Source of the DNA: a virus
Direction: 5' to 3' (one strand)
Length of the DNA stretch: 23,794 nucleotides
Virus record (IMG/VR): IMGVR_UViG_3300022602_000432
Location: 1 to 23,794 of that record
The notes under the pieces are model-generated. The model was not told the origin of the DNA, searched no databases, and was given only the letters and a program-made list of their open reading frames with translations. How positions within the stretch are numbered: position 1 is the first letter of the stretch; each line of letters opens with the position of its first letter. Below are positions 18,881-23,794 of this stretch, one piece after another. Made by a program: the position numbers and the translations under genes.

Positions 18881-19633
18881 TTACAGACCCCATACGTCAA
18901 AGGCCGCTTTGCGGGCCATAGGGTCTGCGAAATAGAAGCTGTCCACCTCGGGGACGACAATTGAAGCAAGCTCCAAGGGATCGTCAGAGATCGACAGGAA
19001 ACGCTGGATCGTTAGCGCAATCTTCTCAAGAGCCAGCACATGCTGCGCCACATTTTCCAGATGGTACGTCGCAGACTTCTTGCCTGTGACATAGGTGAGA
19101 CGCGCATCGAGATTGTTGCCCCGCGCAGCGACATAGAGAGCAACCTGCCGTGCGTGGCTGGTGGAGATTTTCGAGGGAAGCGCATGCGAAGTTTTGAGGT
19201 CCGTGAGGATGCCATGATTTGCCCACTCGAAGTCATAGAATCCGATCATGGGGACCATCAGGCCCTCGATGTGGTATTCGATCTTGCCCTGCGTCGAAGT
19301 AGGCTGGCCATAGGGGCGCAACTCTGCGAGGCCCATTTTGACCATGTCGCCGATCGCGCCAGCCTCTTTTTCACGGCGGCTATCGCCTGAAAGTGCGGTG
19401 AGCTTGTCAAACTCCGCCTTGGCGATGGCGGCGCAAGTCTCGTCATCGGCGCCATTCACCAGTCCCTCGACGATACCGGCTTCAACGGCAGTGCCGCGAT
19501 AGGCGGCCGCCCCGACGGGGCTGCGCTTCTTCATGCACTTCTCAAGCACGAACATGGCGGGGCTATTCGTGAAGAGGTTGCAGGCTGATGGAGACAGGTG
19601 CTTGAGGTCGTGGACCTCGAAAGGGTTTTTCAT
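18881..19633 (-). CDS. PD-(D/E)XK nuclease (RecB/Cas4-like exonuclease)
   Basis: A 250-aa nuclease. It opens with LSPSACNLFTNSP (residues 13-25), the usual first helix of RecB-type nuclease domains, followed by GTAVEAG (47-53) with E51 where many relatives have His. The core is GFYDFEW with D134, then the D145-L-K147 D-x-K motif, then Q163 in RQVALY (motif QxxxY). All expected catalytic residues are therefore present. In phages such enzymes act on DNA ends in recombination or degrade host DNA. It is the first gene of the minus-strand cluster, transcribed from the divergent control region at 19634-19766; the probable ssDNA-binding protein gene follows. Confidence 0.8.
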   Translation of the reverse strand: MKNPFEVHDLKHLSPSACNLFTNSPAMFVLEKCMKKRSPVGAAAYRGTAVEAGIVEGLVNGADDETCAAIAKAEFDKLTALSGDSRREKEAGAIGDMVKMGLAELRPYGQPTSTQGKIEYHIEGLMVPMIGFYDFEWANHGILTDLKTSHALPSKISTSHARQVALYVAARGNNLDARLTYVTGKKSATYHLENVAQHVLALEKIALTIQRFLSISDDPLELASIVVPEVDSFYFADPMARKAAFDVWGL

Positions 19634-19660
19634 GTGTCACTCTCAATTTCAACTGTCATC

Positions 19661-19690
19661 AGGGTAGGCTGATTTGCAGATCGGCGTCAA
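19661..19690 (-). promoter_or_regulatory. Candidate leftward promoter
   Basis: On the minus strand TTGACG (19690-19685) is followed 18 bases later by TACCCT (19666-19661), with the nuclease ATG 28 bases further on. The -10 match is only partial. The left dyad begins three bases upstream of the -35. Confidence 0.35.
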
Positions 19691-19692
19691 CA

Positions 19693-19703
19693 GACAATTT
19701 GTC
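19693..19703. promoter_or_regulatory. Operator-like dyad 1 (GACA-ATT-TGTC)
   Basis: GACAATTTGTC has perfect arms GACAA/TTGTC around one base. It is nearly identical to the dyad exactly 33 bases to the right (shared AGACAA..TGTC), a spacing of about three helical turns. It lies just upstream of the leftward -35. The likely ligand is the small HTH protein encoded at 19888. Confidence 0.55.
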
Positions 19704-19714
19704 CTTTTCCAGAA

Positions 19715-19720
19715 TTGACT
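19715..19720 (+). promoter_or_regulatory. Candidate rightward -35 element
   Basis: TTGACT between the two dyads. No good -10 hexamer is seen 16-18 bases downstream, so the rightward promoter is only tentative. Dyad 2 would fall in its spacer. Confidence 0.25.
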
Positions 19721-19725
19721 TTGAA

Positions 19726-19736
19726 GACAAAATGTC
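19726..19736. promoter_or_regulatory. Operator-like dyad 2 (GACA-AAA-TGTC)
   Basis: GACAAAATGTC, extended by flanking A and T to AGACA/TGTCT, perfect arms of five bases. It is the second copy of the element at 19693, six bases right of TTGACT, a position where binding would block the rightward promoter. Confidence 0.55.
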
Positions 19737-19766
19737 TCAACCTCCGCAAATCACTTGGAGGGTATT

Positions 19767-19901
19767 ATGGCTGAAATCATCACGACCGTGCTTCTGTTCC
19801 TCGCCGGTTTTTCGGCTGGCACAATAATCTTTGTTTGGTTCATGTTTTTCGTGGGCCGCGCCTCAAACTTCATTGTGGAGACGTTTTATGGAGAAGACTG
19901 A
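19767..19901 (+). CDS. 44-aa membrane protein
   Basis: A small open frame starting at ATG 19767 with an excellent GGAGG five bases upstream. The 44-aa product has a very hydrophobic segment from about residue 5 to 29, rich in Phe and with small residues (FLAGFSAG), and a short C-terminal tail ending YGED. It is the first gene of the replication operon and overlaps the next gene by 14 bases. The strong binding site and coupling support translation. The role is unknown; early phage membrane peptides often act in exclusion or host takeover, but nothing in the sequence shows which. Confidence 0.65.
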   Translation: MAEIITTVLLFLAGFSAGTIIFVWFMFFVGRASNFIVETFYGED

Positions 19902-20088
19902 CTACGAGTGGGACTTGATCCTGCGCGCTGCGGAAAGGCTTGGCGTCAGCCGCCATGCCCGCGCGAAGTGGAAGAACAGGAAGATGGTGCCCCATCGGTG
20001 GCGCCCGCAGATCATTGCGGCCACGCGGGGCGTGGTTAATTGGGATCACTTCACCGCCCTCGACGAGGCAGCAAGGACCGCAGCGTGA
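19888..20088 (+). CDS. Small Cro-like helix-turn-helix protein
   Basis: A 66-aa basic protein from ATG 19888, with GGAG seven bases upstream. Residues about 12-47 (AAERLGVSRHARAKWKNRKMVPHRW) form a Cro/YdaS-like helix-turn-helix, with the K-W-x-N-R-x-x-V-P-x-R-W pattern common in small phage repressors. It lies next to two operator-like dyads in the divergent control region and is the obvious candidate to bind them as a dimer. Its end overlaps the RuvC-like gene by four bases (GTGA). Repressor function is inferred. Confidence 0.7.
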   Translation: MEKTDYEWDLILRAAERLGVSRHARAKWKNRKMVPHRWRPQIIAATRGVVNWDHFTALDEAARTAA

Positions 20089-20555
20089 TTTACATTGGCA
20101 TCGACCCGGGCCTGAATGGCGCCATTGCATTCTTCGACGTCGAGAAGGGCCACCTGTCTGTTGTGGACATGCCCACCTTCGAGGTGAAGCGGAACAACAA
20201 GTTGAAGCGCGAAGTGAGCCCCCACGGGATTGCCGACGTCTTGTCCCTGTCGCAGAAAATTTCGGACGTCGTCCTTGAGCGCGTGGGCGCGATGCCCGGT
20301 CAGGGCGTCACTAGCGTCTTCAGCTTTGGACGCAGCGTTGGCGTCATTGAGGGCATACTGGCGGCGGAGCATATCCCCGTGAGCATCGTCACTCCGCAGG
20401 CGTGGCAAAAGGCCGCAGGTGTGCGTGGGGGCAAGGATGGAGCCCGGCAGCGCGCCTGTGAGCTGTTCCCCAACTATGCGGGCCTGTTCGCCCGGAAGAA
20501 AGATGATGGCCGCGCAGACGCCGCATGCATGGCTTGGTATGCCGCAACACGTTGA
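20085..20555 (+). CDS. RuvC-like Holliday junction resolvase
   Basis: A 156-aa RNase H-fold nuclease with a GTG start at 20085, overlapping the previous stop by four bases; longer frames run through the HTH gene. The RuvC pattern is visible: D7 in IGIDPGLNGAIAF, E65 in VVLERVGAM with FSFGRSVGVIEGIL following, and D141 and D145 in DDGRADAACMAWY. The size is close to bacterial RuvC. Phage RuvC-like enzymes resolve branched replication or recombination intermediates before packaging. The next gene starts 13 bases after its stop. Confidence 0.8.
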   Translation: MIYIGIDPGLNGAIAFFDVEKGHLSVVDMPTFEVKRNNKLKREVSPHGIADVLSLSQKISDVVLERVGAMPGQGVTSVFSFGRSVGVIEGILAAEHIPVSIVTPQAWQKAAGVRGGKDGARQRACELFPNYAGLFARKKDDGRADAACMAWYAATR

Positions 20556-20568
20556 AATTGAGATGGAT

Positions 20569-22698
20569 ATGAGCTTGGCAATGTCGTTTGATCCAGACTT
20601 CGCAGAGCCCTCAGAGTGGGCTCGCATGTACCGCAGCGTCGGGATGCAAGTCGTCCCCGCCATGAGCCACAGGGAAAACAAGAACCAGTGGAAGCGCCCG
20701 GCGCTCCCGAAGTGGCGGGAGCTGGAGCACGAGCTGGCGCCCGACTTCACCTTTGAGCGTTGGTATGGCGAAACTGGCGAGCACGCACGCCGCGTCAACA
20801 TGGGCCTGATCGCGGGCGCCTGCTCGAACGGGATCTTCGTCGTGGATCTCGACCTGCACAAAGACGTTCGCGCGCAGGCGTGGTGGGACGACATGTTTCA
20901 CATGAAACGTGCCGCAGGCGAGCTGGAGACGGTCGAGCAAGAGACTGGCGGCGGTGGTGTGCAGCTCTTCTTCCGTGCGCCGCTCGGCTGGAATCCGCCC
21001 ACCTGCAAGACGAGCATTGGCGTGGACATCCGTGGGCAGGGAGGCTTCGCCATGATGCCGCCCAGCATGCATCAGAGCGGCACGCCATACCGGTGGAAGA
21101 TTGGCCACGAGCCGTGGGAGATGGACATTGCGGCGGCCCCGCAGTGGCTCTGCGATCAGATCACACAGCTCGCTATCGAGCATGGTGGCTCATCTGGTGA
21201 GAACCGTGTAACAGGCGAAAAAACTGCATCTCCAAATAAAGCTGTGGATAACTTTGGCAATATTGTCGATGGCCGCGAAGACTACATGACCAAGCTCGTG
21301 TGGGCGGCGGTCGTCGATCTTTACCGTGACGCGCCCATCCCGCCGTCGAAGGTGGAGAGCGAAACGGCCATGAATGACGCCTTCGTTACCTATGAGCGCA
21401 AGGTAAAAAGCCGCCTGCATGCCCCCGGCACCTCGAACTTTGATCTTCTTGAGCGAGAGGGTCGCGGGTTCAGCTTGTTCCGCCACAAGTGGACGCTGGC
21501 CATTGAGCAGTGGGACACCAAGGTGGCCGAGCACGCCAAGGTGGAGCGCCCTAGCCGCCCTTTCGATCAGGCCGGTGAGCCCGAGCCCGTCAAATTCTAC
21601 AAGGTTGATCCAGAAACCGGCGAACTTTTCACTGATGTAATCAAGCAGGCGGCTGCTGATCTGTTTGAGTTTCTCGACATCAAGGGCATTCGCGCGCTTC
21701 CCAAGCCCAAGTATCTGATCGAAAAGCTGATGATCGAAACCGGGCTCGGGTTCGTCTATGGCCCCCCGGGCTGCGGCAAGAGCTTCATCACCATTGGCAT
21801 GGGCCTGTCCATTGCCGCCCAGCGCACAGAATGGTTTGGGCGCGCAATCAAGAAGACCGGCCCGATCGTCTACATCTCCTCCGAGGGCGTTGGCGACATC
21901 GGCTTGCGCATTGACGCATGGGAGAAGGAGACTGGCGTCATGGCCGGAGACCTGCCCTTCTACCTGATCAGGCAGAACATCAACTTCATGTCTCAGGCAG
22001 ACGTGGAGCGCCTGCTGCGCACGGTTGCAGAGATCGCGAAGATCGTTGGCGAGTTCCCGGTTGTCGTCTTCGTAGACACCGTCAGCCGCGTCCTGCCCGG
22101 CGCCGACGAAAACCTCCAGAAAGACATGACCCTCTTCATTGGCGCCTGTGATGCCGTCCGCACGACCTTTGGGGCGACAGTCGTCGGCGTCCACCACACG
22201 AGCCGGGCGGGCAACCTGCGGGGGTCCACGGTCTTTGATGGCGCCGGTGACTTCCTCCTGAGCATTGAGCGCGAGGAGGGCGAGAGCATTGGCGAGATCC
22301 ACGCCCGCAAGATTAAGTCCGCCGAGGACGGCTGGCGCCAGCCCTTTGAACTCAAGAAGGTCGTCGTGAACGACATCACCGGCGAGGGCAGTCTCTACGC
22401 TGCGCAGGCCAATGCTCAGGCGACACCCAAGAGCGTCTGGCCCGAGAAGCAAGTGTGCCGAGACATGCTGAACGTGATCAGAGTGGCGTGGTTCGCTGGG
22501 CGGCCGCTCTCAAGTTATTCCCAGACCCGCAAGCAGGGGCGCTTCGCCTCGGCGGTACTGAGCGCGCAATTCGATCTCCCCGAAAAGGTGGTCGATATGA
22601 TGGTGGAGGCGTGGCTCTCCAACCAGATCTTGTCCTACGAGGTCGTGGACAAGAACACGAAAATGCAGGGCCTCAAGGTAATTGGATCAATCGACTAG
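20569..22698 (+). CDS. Prim-pol / RepA-like helicase replication protein
   Basis: A 709-aa two-domain protein. ATG 20569 is preferred, with GAG six bases upstream; ATG 20563 is also possible. Residues about 15-195 form a bifunctional primase-polymerase domain: the metal pair D93-x-D95 in IFVVDLDLHK, GGGGVQLFF at 127-135 where Gln132 stands at the usual His, and D153 in VDIRGQGGF. A linker at about 200-235 is encoded by AT-rich DNA. A RecA/AAA_25-type helicase domain follows: Walker A GPPGCGKS at 398-405, Walker B VVVFVDT with D503, then VVGVHHTSRAGNLRGS. The C-terminal 80 residues may be a small winged helix. It probably primes and unwinds at the phage origin. Confidence 0.85.
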   Translation: MSLAMSFDPDFAEPSEWARMYRSVGMQVVPAMSHRENKNQWKRPALPKWRELEHELAPDFTFERWYGETGEHARRVNMGLIAGACSNGIFVVDLDLHKDVRAQAWWDDMFHMKRAAGELETVEQETGGGGVQLFFRAPLGWNPPTCKTSIGVDIRGQGGFAMMPPSMHQSGTPYRWKIGHEPWEMDIAAAPQWLCDQITQLAIEHGGSSGENRVTGEKTASPNKAVDNFGNIVDGREDYMTKLVWAAVVDLYRDAPIPPSKVESETAMNDAFVTYERKVKSRLHAPGTSNFDLLEREGRGFSLFRHKWTLAIEQWDTKVAEHAKVERPSRPFDQAGEPEPVKFYKVDPETGELFTDVIKQAAADLFEFLDIKGIRALPKPKYLIEKLMIETGLGFVYGPPGCGKSFITIGMGLSIAAQRTEWFGRAIKKTGPIVYISSEGVGDIGLRIDAWEKETGVMAGDLPFYLIRQNINFMSQADVERLLRTVAEIAKIVGEFPVVVFVDTVSRVLPGADENLQKDMTLFIGACDAVRTTFGATVVGVHHTSRAGNLRGSTVFDGAGDFLLSIEREEGESIGEIHARKIKSAEDGWRQPFELKKVVVNDITGEGSLYAAQANAQATPKSVWPEKQVCRDMLNVIRVAWFAGRPLSSYSQTRKQGRFASAVLSAQFDLPEKVVDMMVEAWLSNQILSYEVVDKNTKMQGLKVIGSID
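21218..21264. other. AT-rich segment with a perfect DnaA box
   Basis: TGTGGATAA at 21243-21251, the complement of the consensus DnaA box TTATCCACA, lies in a 47-base stretch of about 32% GC inside the primase-helicase gene, where the protein has an inter-domain linker. It is the only perfect box noticed in the window. An origin role is a hypothesis. Confidence 0.4.
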
Positions 22699-22709
22699 AG
22701 GGGAACATC

Positions 22710-22958
22710 ATGGAATTTGACACCGAGCGCGTCGCACACGAGTGCGAAAAAACCATCCACCGCATGCGGATCGTCATGAAGGGCAAGGGCGGCCCCGTCA
22801 TCATGACCAGCCTCGCATTTCTCGTGGCCGAGGCCATCAACATAACGAGTGATGAGGCGAACTTCGAAAAGAACCTGCGCACCTTTACGGCCAGCGTGCA
22901 GGACATCATCGACACTGCCCGCAAGATCGAAGACATGAACGAAGGGGGCGTTCAATGA
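22710..22958 (+). CDS. Small helical protein, 82 aa
   Basis: An 82-aa protein from ATG 22710, with AGAGGGG six bases upstream; the open frame extends back to 22455 but inside the helicase gene. It is mostly helical and charged, with a hydrophobic helix (VIMTSLAFLVAEAI) in the middle and an acidic C-terminus. No family recognised. The stop overlaps the alpha-CTD-like gene start by four bases (ATGA), so the two are coupled and may act together. Confidence 0.6.
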   Translation: MEFDTERVAHECEKTIHRMRIVMKGKGGPVIMTSLAFLVAEAINITSDEANFEKNLRTFTASVQDIIDTARKIEDMNEGGVQ

Positions 22959-23326
22959 GCGCGTTGGATATTGAAGTCAGAGACATCCGTTTCAAAATTT
23001 CGTCGCGTCTGTGGAACTGCCTGATGGCGGAGAACATGGATACGCTCTCGGATGTCGTTAAACTTGAGGGCCGCGAGTGGCTGCGCGTCCCCGGCTTTGG
23101 GCGCTTGGCGCTGAAGGAGCTGGAAAGCTTTCTCGCCACCCAAGGCCTGCAACTCAAGAGTGGCCCGACGCCCTTCAAGGTGCGGGCCGCCGACAAGATC
23201 AAGAAGTTGAGGCAGGCCCTCATTGAAGTTGGCCGCATCAACAACAAGCGCGATCGCTTTAGCACCGAGATCGACCGCATCATTCTTGATGCGCTGGCGC
23301 AGGACGAAAACGATGACGCCGCGTGA
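22955..23326 (+). CDS. Stand-alone RNA polymerase alpha-CTD-like protein
   Basis: A 123-aa protein. Residues about 14-68 resemble the C-terminal domain of bacterial RNA polymerase alpha: ISSRLWNCLMAENMDTLSDVV, then LRVPGFGRLALKEL, then LATQGLQL. By alignment from memory with E. coli alpha, R18 corresponds to R265 and N21-C22 to N268-C269 (the DNA-contacting helix), and G49 to G296, while K298 and S299 are replaced by L51 and A52. No alpha N-terminal domain is present. The C-terminal half is a charged helix. It could bind UP-element-like DNA or compete for contacts made by host alpha. A generic helix-hairpin-helix DNA-binding role is the alternative. Confidence 0.7.
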   Translation: MSALDIEVRDIRFKISSRLWNCLMAENMDTLSDVVKLEGREWLRVPGFGRLALKELESFLATQGLQLKSGPTPFKVRAADKIKKLRQALIEVGRINNKRDRFSTEIDRIILDALAQDENDDAA

Positions 23327-23549
23327 GGTGATTCCGGCTGAGATCAGCGAGGAGGTGGAGGCTGAGGTCTCCACCGCCCTTCACAAGATGGTGGCGGATG
23401 AGCGACGCTATGCCGGCGACCGCATCGAGAAGCTGGAGGCGGCGCTGCGCGAACTATCGTGTAAATGTACTTCAAATTGCGATTGGGAACGTGGAGACAT
23501 CTGCCCTTCTTGGATCGCCTGCAAAGCACTGGAGGGGAAAGATGACTGA
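23313..23549 (+). CDS. Hypothetical Cys-rich small protein, 78 aa
   Basis: A 78-aa protein from ATG 23313, overlapping the end of the previous gene by 14 bases; the binding site is weak, so the start is not certain. The N-terminal 45 residues are an acidic helix with coiled-coil character (RIEKLEAALREL). The C-terminal part has five cysteines (C50, C52, C56, C64, C70), suggesting a small metal-binding knot. It ends GKDD, with the next ATG inside those codons. Confidence 0.55.
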   Translation: MTPREVIPAEISEEVEAEVSTALHKMVADERRYAGDRIEKLEAALRELSCKCTSNCDWERGDICPSWIACKALEGKDD

Positions 23550-23794
23550 TGACCTTTTGTATCGTCTGCGCGGCGTCATGTGTGGCGATGACCCTGCGAT
23601 TGAAGAAGCTGCCAATCGCATTGAACAGTTAGAAAAGGGCTTTGTTGACATTCTGTCTCAACAGCCGTTGGATTTGATCGTTGCAATGATCGCTAAGGCT
23701 TGTCTTGTGGGGGCAATAGATAAAAACGGCAAATATTGCTTTGTTGGTGATTTGAGGATTGTCGATGGCAAAGCATTGATGGAGAAGAAAGATG
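23542..23794 (+). CDS. Hypothetical protein, 3' end cut by the window
   Basis: The frame opens at ATG 23542, with GGAGGGG a few bases upstream, overlaps the previous stop by eight bases (ATGACTGA), and runs off the right edge after 84 residues. It begins MTDDLLYRLRG, then AIEEAANRIEQLEKGF, a helical pattern common in small phage early proteins. The last codons, LMEKKD, repeat the end of the winged-helix gene at 15584-15967, so the stop is probably within a few bases past the edge. Function unknown. Confidence 0.6.
   Translation, partial: MTDDLLYRLRGVMCGDDPAIEEAANRIEQLEKGFVDILSQQPLDLIVAMIAKACLVGAIDKNGKYCFVGDLRIVDGKALMEKKD
23777..23794 (+). repeat. 18-bp coupling cassette, copy 2
   Basis: TGATGGAGAAGAAAGATG, identical to the minus-strand copy at 15589-15606. 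It encodes LMEKKD here too and contains GGAG and an ATG at 23792 that probably starts the next gene beyond the edge. Confidence 0.65.

Follow-up and report, generated by a model that had tools for sequence, protein, structure and literature searches.

The window analyzed here, a 23,794-base linear fragment forming an IMG/VR virus record, encodes a 123-amino-acid protein that is a member of the alpha-CTD family, the C-terminal domain of the RNA polymerase (RNAP) alpha subunit RpoA, and that lacks the alpha-NTD, the N-terminal domain of that subunit. As the record is a linear fragment, this places the gene close to the right-hand end. The features referred to below are as follows.

20055 to 20555, + strand: RuvC-like Holliday junction resolvase (PHROG 1770, 2.2e-37).
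20560 to 22698, + strand: primase-helicase (Prim-Pol plus AAA_25), a conserved gene that served as the upstream anchor for locating sister phages.
22710 to 22958, + strand: 82-aa gene, predicted three-helix protein, conserved after the primase-helicase whether the alpha-CTD gene is present or not.
22955 to 23326, + strand: stand-alone alpha-CTD-like protein, whole open reading frame (ORF), 123 aa (Pfam, PDB and structure matches, dN/dS).
22955 to 23164, + strand: alpha-CTD domain proper, residues 1 to 70 (Pfam over residues 14 to 60, VIA-align over residues 1 to 70, alignment).
23165 to 23323, + strand: C-terminal tail, residues 71 to 123, with helices predicted at residues 78 to 96 and 104 to 120 (AlphaFold, low confidence; fold unassigned).
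23313 to 23549, + strand: "MTPREV..." gene downstream of the alpha-CTD gene; sister-phage versions are fused to other C-terminal pieces.

The identity of the protein is secure. The Pfam model RNA_pol_A_CTD (PF03118) matched residues 14 to 60 with an E value of 2.7e-7 and 30.6 bits (31.9 bits in another search), against a gathering cutoff of 23.8, and a phmmer search of the PDB returned the Caulobacter alpha-CTD 9zum as the top match (E value of 2e-6), with nearly all of the others also being RNAP alpha. An AlphaFold model of the 123-aa protein, based on 14 aligned phage sequences, had block-mean pLDDT values of 81 to 89 for residues 1 to 70 and of about 48 to 74 in the tail. All 50 matches listed by Foldseek against the PDB were RNAP alpha chains (28 matches overall had E values of <0.001), as were all 50 listed by VIA-align, with Z scores of up to 12.4; matches with Z scores of about 12 had rmsd values of 1.3 to 1.9 over 66 to 68 residues. 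A first-pass annotation had proposed a stand-alone alpha-CTD and had suggested an HMM search and a structure comparison as checks, with a better match to a generic helix-hairpin-helix (HhH) protein as the result that would count against it. Both checks returned an alpha-CTD, and generic HhH structures were absent from the structural matches listed. The generic model HHH_5 was not reported for the protein in a Pfam search with E values of up to 1, and in the relatives examined it scored below its cutoff and below PF03118. The alpha-NTD, which in RpoA serves dimerization and beta/beta' assembly, had no match in the 123-aa ORF, and the NCBIfam rpoA models fell far below their cutoffs.

The ORF begins with ATG, overlaps the stop codon of the 82-aa ORF by 4 nucleotides, and is immediately preceded by a G-rich, Shine-Dalgarno-like run. 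A 92%-identical homolog, conserved over the whole ORF, is present in two other viral contigs (L001/L023). Measured against this homolog, dN/dS was 0.22 in frame and 1.1 to 1.3 in the other two forward frames, which shows that this is a real gene under purifying selection; the value for the tail was 0.13, resting on few changes. These results bear on the reading that the similarity is due to chance or that the ORF is a decaying, functionless fragment of a captured rpoA. The domain is short, its identity to RpoA is about 30%, and a related viral protein in locus L139 keeps a residual piece of the alpha-NTD, as such a reading would expect. However, the in-frame constraint, the conservation of the whole ORF at 92%, and the alpha-CTDs above the Pfam cutoff carried by 15 of the 50 related records that were searched whole have already largely refuted it, and we consider it very improbable. 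No sigma-70-type promoter was found by a promoter scan of positions 19500 to 23794, and the ORFs read in the window included no gene for an RNA polymerase. A scan of bacterial genomes with patterns from close homologs gave no match within the reach of those patterns.

The alpha-CTD gene is an exchangeable accessory gene beside the replication genes. Eighty related phage loci were gathered by way of the primase-helicase, and co-occurrence was counted over 81 loci. Where the alpha-CTD gene is on the + strand, it usually lies directly 3' of the primase-helicase or of the 82-aa gene. The two small genes, whose coupling had led the first-pass annotation to suggest a pair acting on host transcription, turned out to occur independently, which does not support functional pairing: both were present in 6 of the 81 loci, the 82-aa gene only in 5, and the alpha-CTD gene only in 12, although some sister contigs are fragments in which the absence of a gene is not proof. 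In three sister phages (L018, L020, and L022), the downstream gene directly follows the 82-aa gene. Locus L018 aligned with the window over positions 20585 to 22922 (86.6%) and 23311 to 23416 (90.6%), and just 17 bp separate these stretches in L018, a clean absence of the alpha-CTD gene. Sister phages such as L018 can do without this gene. The 82-aa protein is conserved in ten sister phages (L014 to L023); it had no Pfam, NCBIfam, or PDB-fold match, the last of these for its predicted three-helix structure, which may nonetheless have a known fold. The neighboring RuvC-like resolvase and primase-helicase genes suggest an early, replication-region position for the alpha-CTD gene.

In several sister phages, the domain carries a different C-terminal end. 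Proteins joining a related alpha-CTD to a DUF551-like end were found in L014, L015, L017, L035, L047, and L053, where DUF551 scored above the cutoff in L014 and weakly in L035 and L053, the ends in L015, L017, and L047 being judged from sequence. The alpha-CTD domain of the window protein is about 42% identical to that of L014, and the alpha-CTD-DUF551 proteins of L014 to L017 occupy the same gene slot; however, the window protein ends in the helical tail instead, and DUF551 (PF04448) was absent from it in the Pfam search. The neighboring "MTPREV" gene (positions 23313 to 23549 in the window, and L015 to L018 and L022) likewise has a constant first part and a swapped C-terminal end, including DUF551-like ends. 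A published description of DUF551 (PMC10834534) presents it as a portable domain that accompanies sigma70, HTH proteins, YfdS, MazZ, and one Ea22 variant. Ea22, an early protein of lambdoid phages that promotes lysogeny, offers a partial parallel as a mosaic early-region protein with swapped end domains, one variant of which ends in DUF551. Nevertheless, Ea22 contains a coiled coil rather than an alpha-CTD, and DUF551 is shared with it by the sister proteins but is absent from the window protein.

The window domain has the fold of the bacterial RpoA C-terminal domain (for example, Caulobacter 9zum and Escherichia coli 1lb2 and 3n97), and aligned with E. coli RpoA it keeps the equivalents of R265, N268, C269, G296, and E302 (R18, N21, C22, G49, and E55 in the window protein, E. 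coli RpoA numbering for the former), whereas K298, S299, and N294 are replaced by L51, A52, and G47. It further differs from RpoA in being without the alpha-NTD and linker and in having the extra C-terminal helical tail. The residue pattern put forward earlier, with R265, N268, and C269 kept and K298 and S299 changed, was confirmed by the alignment. K298 and S299 are DNA-contact residues, and their loss may weaken or alter DNA binding. Position 261, a Glu in E. coli RpoA and part of the alpha-CTD surface that contacts sigma, is a Lys in the window protein; position 259 reads as either Asp or Arg, according to where the gap is put, and the acidic pair at 259 and 261 expected of the 261 determinant for sigma contact is not present. 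At the 287-type positions 285 to 287, the window protein has E-G-R rather than T-E-V.

A wider scan with a mixed phage/RpoA alignment recovered 80 viral loci with alpha-CTDs, and conservation was assessed over 55 nonredundant viral alpha-CTDs of <80% identity, 53 of which were aligned at position 265. The R265 equivalent was the most conserved position (52 of 53), and N268 was kept in 44. Mean entropy was 0.75 bits at the eight DNA-face positions, compared with 2.63 at the 261 surface and 1.90 over all positions, a statistic that is partly circular for the wide set since five of the eight DNA-face positions fall inside the scan patterns, which cover positions in the second half of the domain. 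In an independent subset of 12 sequences reached via the primase-helicase gene, R265 was kept in 11 and N268 in 10, and the eight-position DNA face gave a P value of 0.043. The test on positions 265, 268, and 269 alone was weaker (P = 0.057 for all sequences and 0.19 for the subset) because position 269 varies. R265 of the E. coli alpha-CTD is surface exposed and required for DNA binding (PMC11434276, PMC3828302). The near-invariance of an exposed residue that is critical for DNA binding is the best evidence that selection keeps this function, and DNA binding, which the first-pass annotation thought might persist, is likely a retained property. By itself, the conservation of R265 cannot tell promoter binding from other binding in the minor groove.

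The protein-contact surfaces behave differently. Conservation at the 261 and 287 surfaces did not exceed that of random positions (P = 0.94 and 0.64, respectively). This weighs against the idea that these proteins are protein-protein mimics, decoys that would substitute for the genuine alpha-CTD as binding partners of host activators or of sigma, as do the Lys at position 261 and the E-G-R at 285 to 287 of the window protein. The alpha-CTD is a docking hub for many activators, and 24 of the 55 viral sequences are acidic at both 259 and 261, but overall we regard such a decoy as improbable. The same lack of conservation at the sigma- and activator-contact surfaces would suit the main rival, a generic DNA-tethering module without a promoter role: the alpha-CTD would be merely a handy HhH-type DNA tether for the tail, DUF551, or other domains, acting in replication, repair, or antidefense with no particular effect at promoters. 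It would also fit the position of the gene right behind the primase-helicase in many relatives and the great variety of partner domains, which include DUF551, a protein annotated as a pyrophosphatase in Ruegeria phage vB_RpoS-V16, and coiled or other unassigned pieces on some viral alpha-CTDs. We consider this a real possibility but a rather doubtful one; the proteins match the RNAP alpha-CTD far better than they do generic HhH families, and some of the fusions point to promoters.

One of these fusions is the protein at L174:2734-3333, in which sigma-70 region 4 is joined to an alpha-CTD, both above their Pfam cutoffs, and N-terminal HTH-like segments at or below the cutoff are found in L109, L148, and L092. 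The region 4 fusion in L174 and the HTH-like segments in L092 and L109 are consistent with a promoter role. Small proteins combining sigma-70 region 4 and an alpha-CTD occur in L174, L176, and L177 (region 4 at 36.2 bits against a cutoff of 24.1 in L174), with a possible second HTH at the C terminus. None of the viral ORFs of the wider set had an alpha-NTD match, whereas the six reference rpoA genes did; the alpha-CTD protein at L139:3755-4237 keeps a remnant from the end of RpoA's N-terminal domain, matching RNA_pol_L at 21 bits (just below the cutoff), which suggests capture of an rpoA gene. In the cultured Ruegeria phage vB_RpoS-V16 (NC_052969; L178:2923-3789), the alpha-CTD opens a 288-aa protein annotated as a pyrophosphatase in one record and as an HTH-domain protein in another.

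Other apparent homologs in phage and plasmid collections (H1 to H3 and H34 to H47) were set aside, as those examined (L007, L008, and L011 to L013) proved to be genuine rpoA genes and the two from Acinetobacter phage MD-2021a (H1 and H2) are annotated as rpoA rather than being stand-alone proteins. The phage-labeled records of L008 (MT839982.1) and of H1 and H2 contain bacterial rpoA, with an apparent rplQ beside that of L008, so bacterial contamination is probable in these. On the 16.5-kb Yoonia plasmid NZ_CP150953, L007:15224-16393 is a full-length rpoA ORF whose 389-aa product has an unusual extension at its C terminus; the ORF is missing from that plasmid's gene table.

The reading that we tentatively favor is that the window protein is a detached, RpoA-derived alpha-CTD that would bind minor-groove DNA and modulate transcription at promoters, probably by competing there with the host alpha-CTD. 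Judging from its residues, the protein, related to host rpoA, would bind the AT-rich minor groove on its own. By occupying sites of the UP-element type, it may compete with the host alpha-CTD, or take its place, at certain promoters of the host or the phage, which would shift transcription toward the phage. Competition at such sites seems the most likely course because the protein has no tether to the polymerase and part of its sigma-contact surface is lost. Points against this reading are the replacement of K298 and S299, the dispensability of the gene in sister phages, and the lack of a sigma-70-type promoter in the region scanned. The tail (residues 71 to 123) probably dimerizes the protein or holds a partner, and the gene neighborhood suggests that the protein would act early in infection. 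A broader proposal, that detached alpha-CTDs form a general modular class of promoter-targeting phage takeover factors of which the window protein is a minimal member, seems to us somewhat unlikely; under that proposal, the fusions of sigma region 4 and alpha-CTD would be the extreme form, a free-standing copy of the upstream promoter-reading unit of the polymerase.

Matches in a viral structure library (E values of 6e-4 to 1e-2) included several proteins of phages that already bear the name "RNA polymerase, alpha subunit, C-terminal," and this kind of protein is therefore known to automated annotation. Examples are the stand-alone alpha-CTDs of an uncultured Caudovirales phage (A0A6J5QDR9) and of Rhodococcus phage Finch (A0A2P1JY10), whose tails differ from that of the window protein. 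The literature searched, which was mostly that outside subscription journals, yielded no work on stand-alone alpha-CTDs of phages. What makes the finding interesting is how widely, and in how modular a fashion, phages use detached alpha-CTDs, which are annotated already but unstudied in that literature. The alpha-CTD is the hub linking promoters and activators to bacterial RNA polymerase. A broad set of phage proteins reduced to this hub, preserving its DNA face but letting the protein-contact faces vary, would offer a simple route to redirect host transcription, and with dozens of homologs and the cultured Ruegeria phage vB_RpoS-V16 at hand, the question is directly testable.
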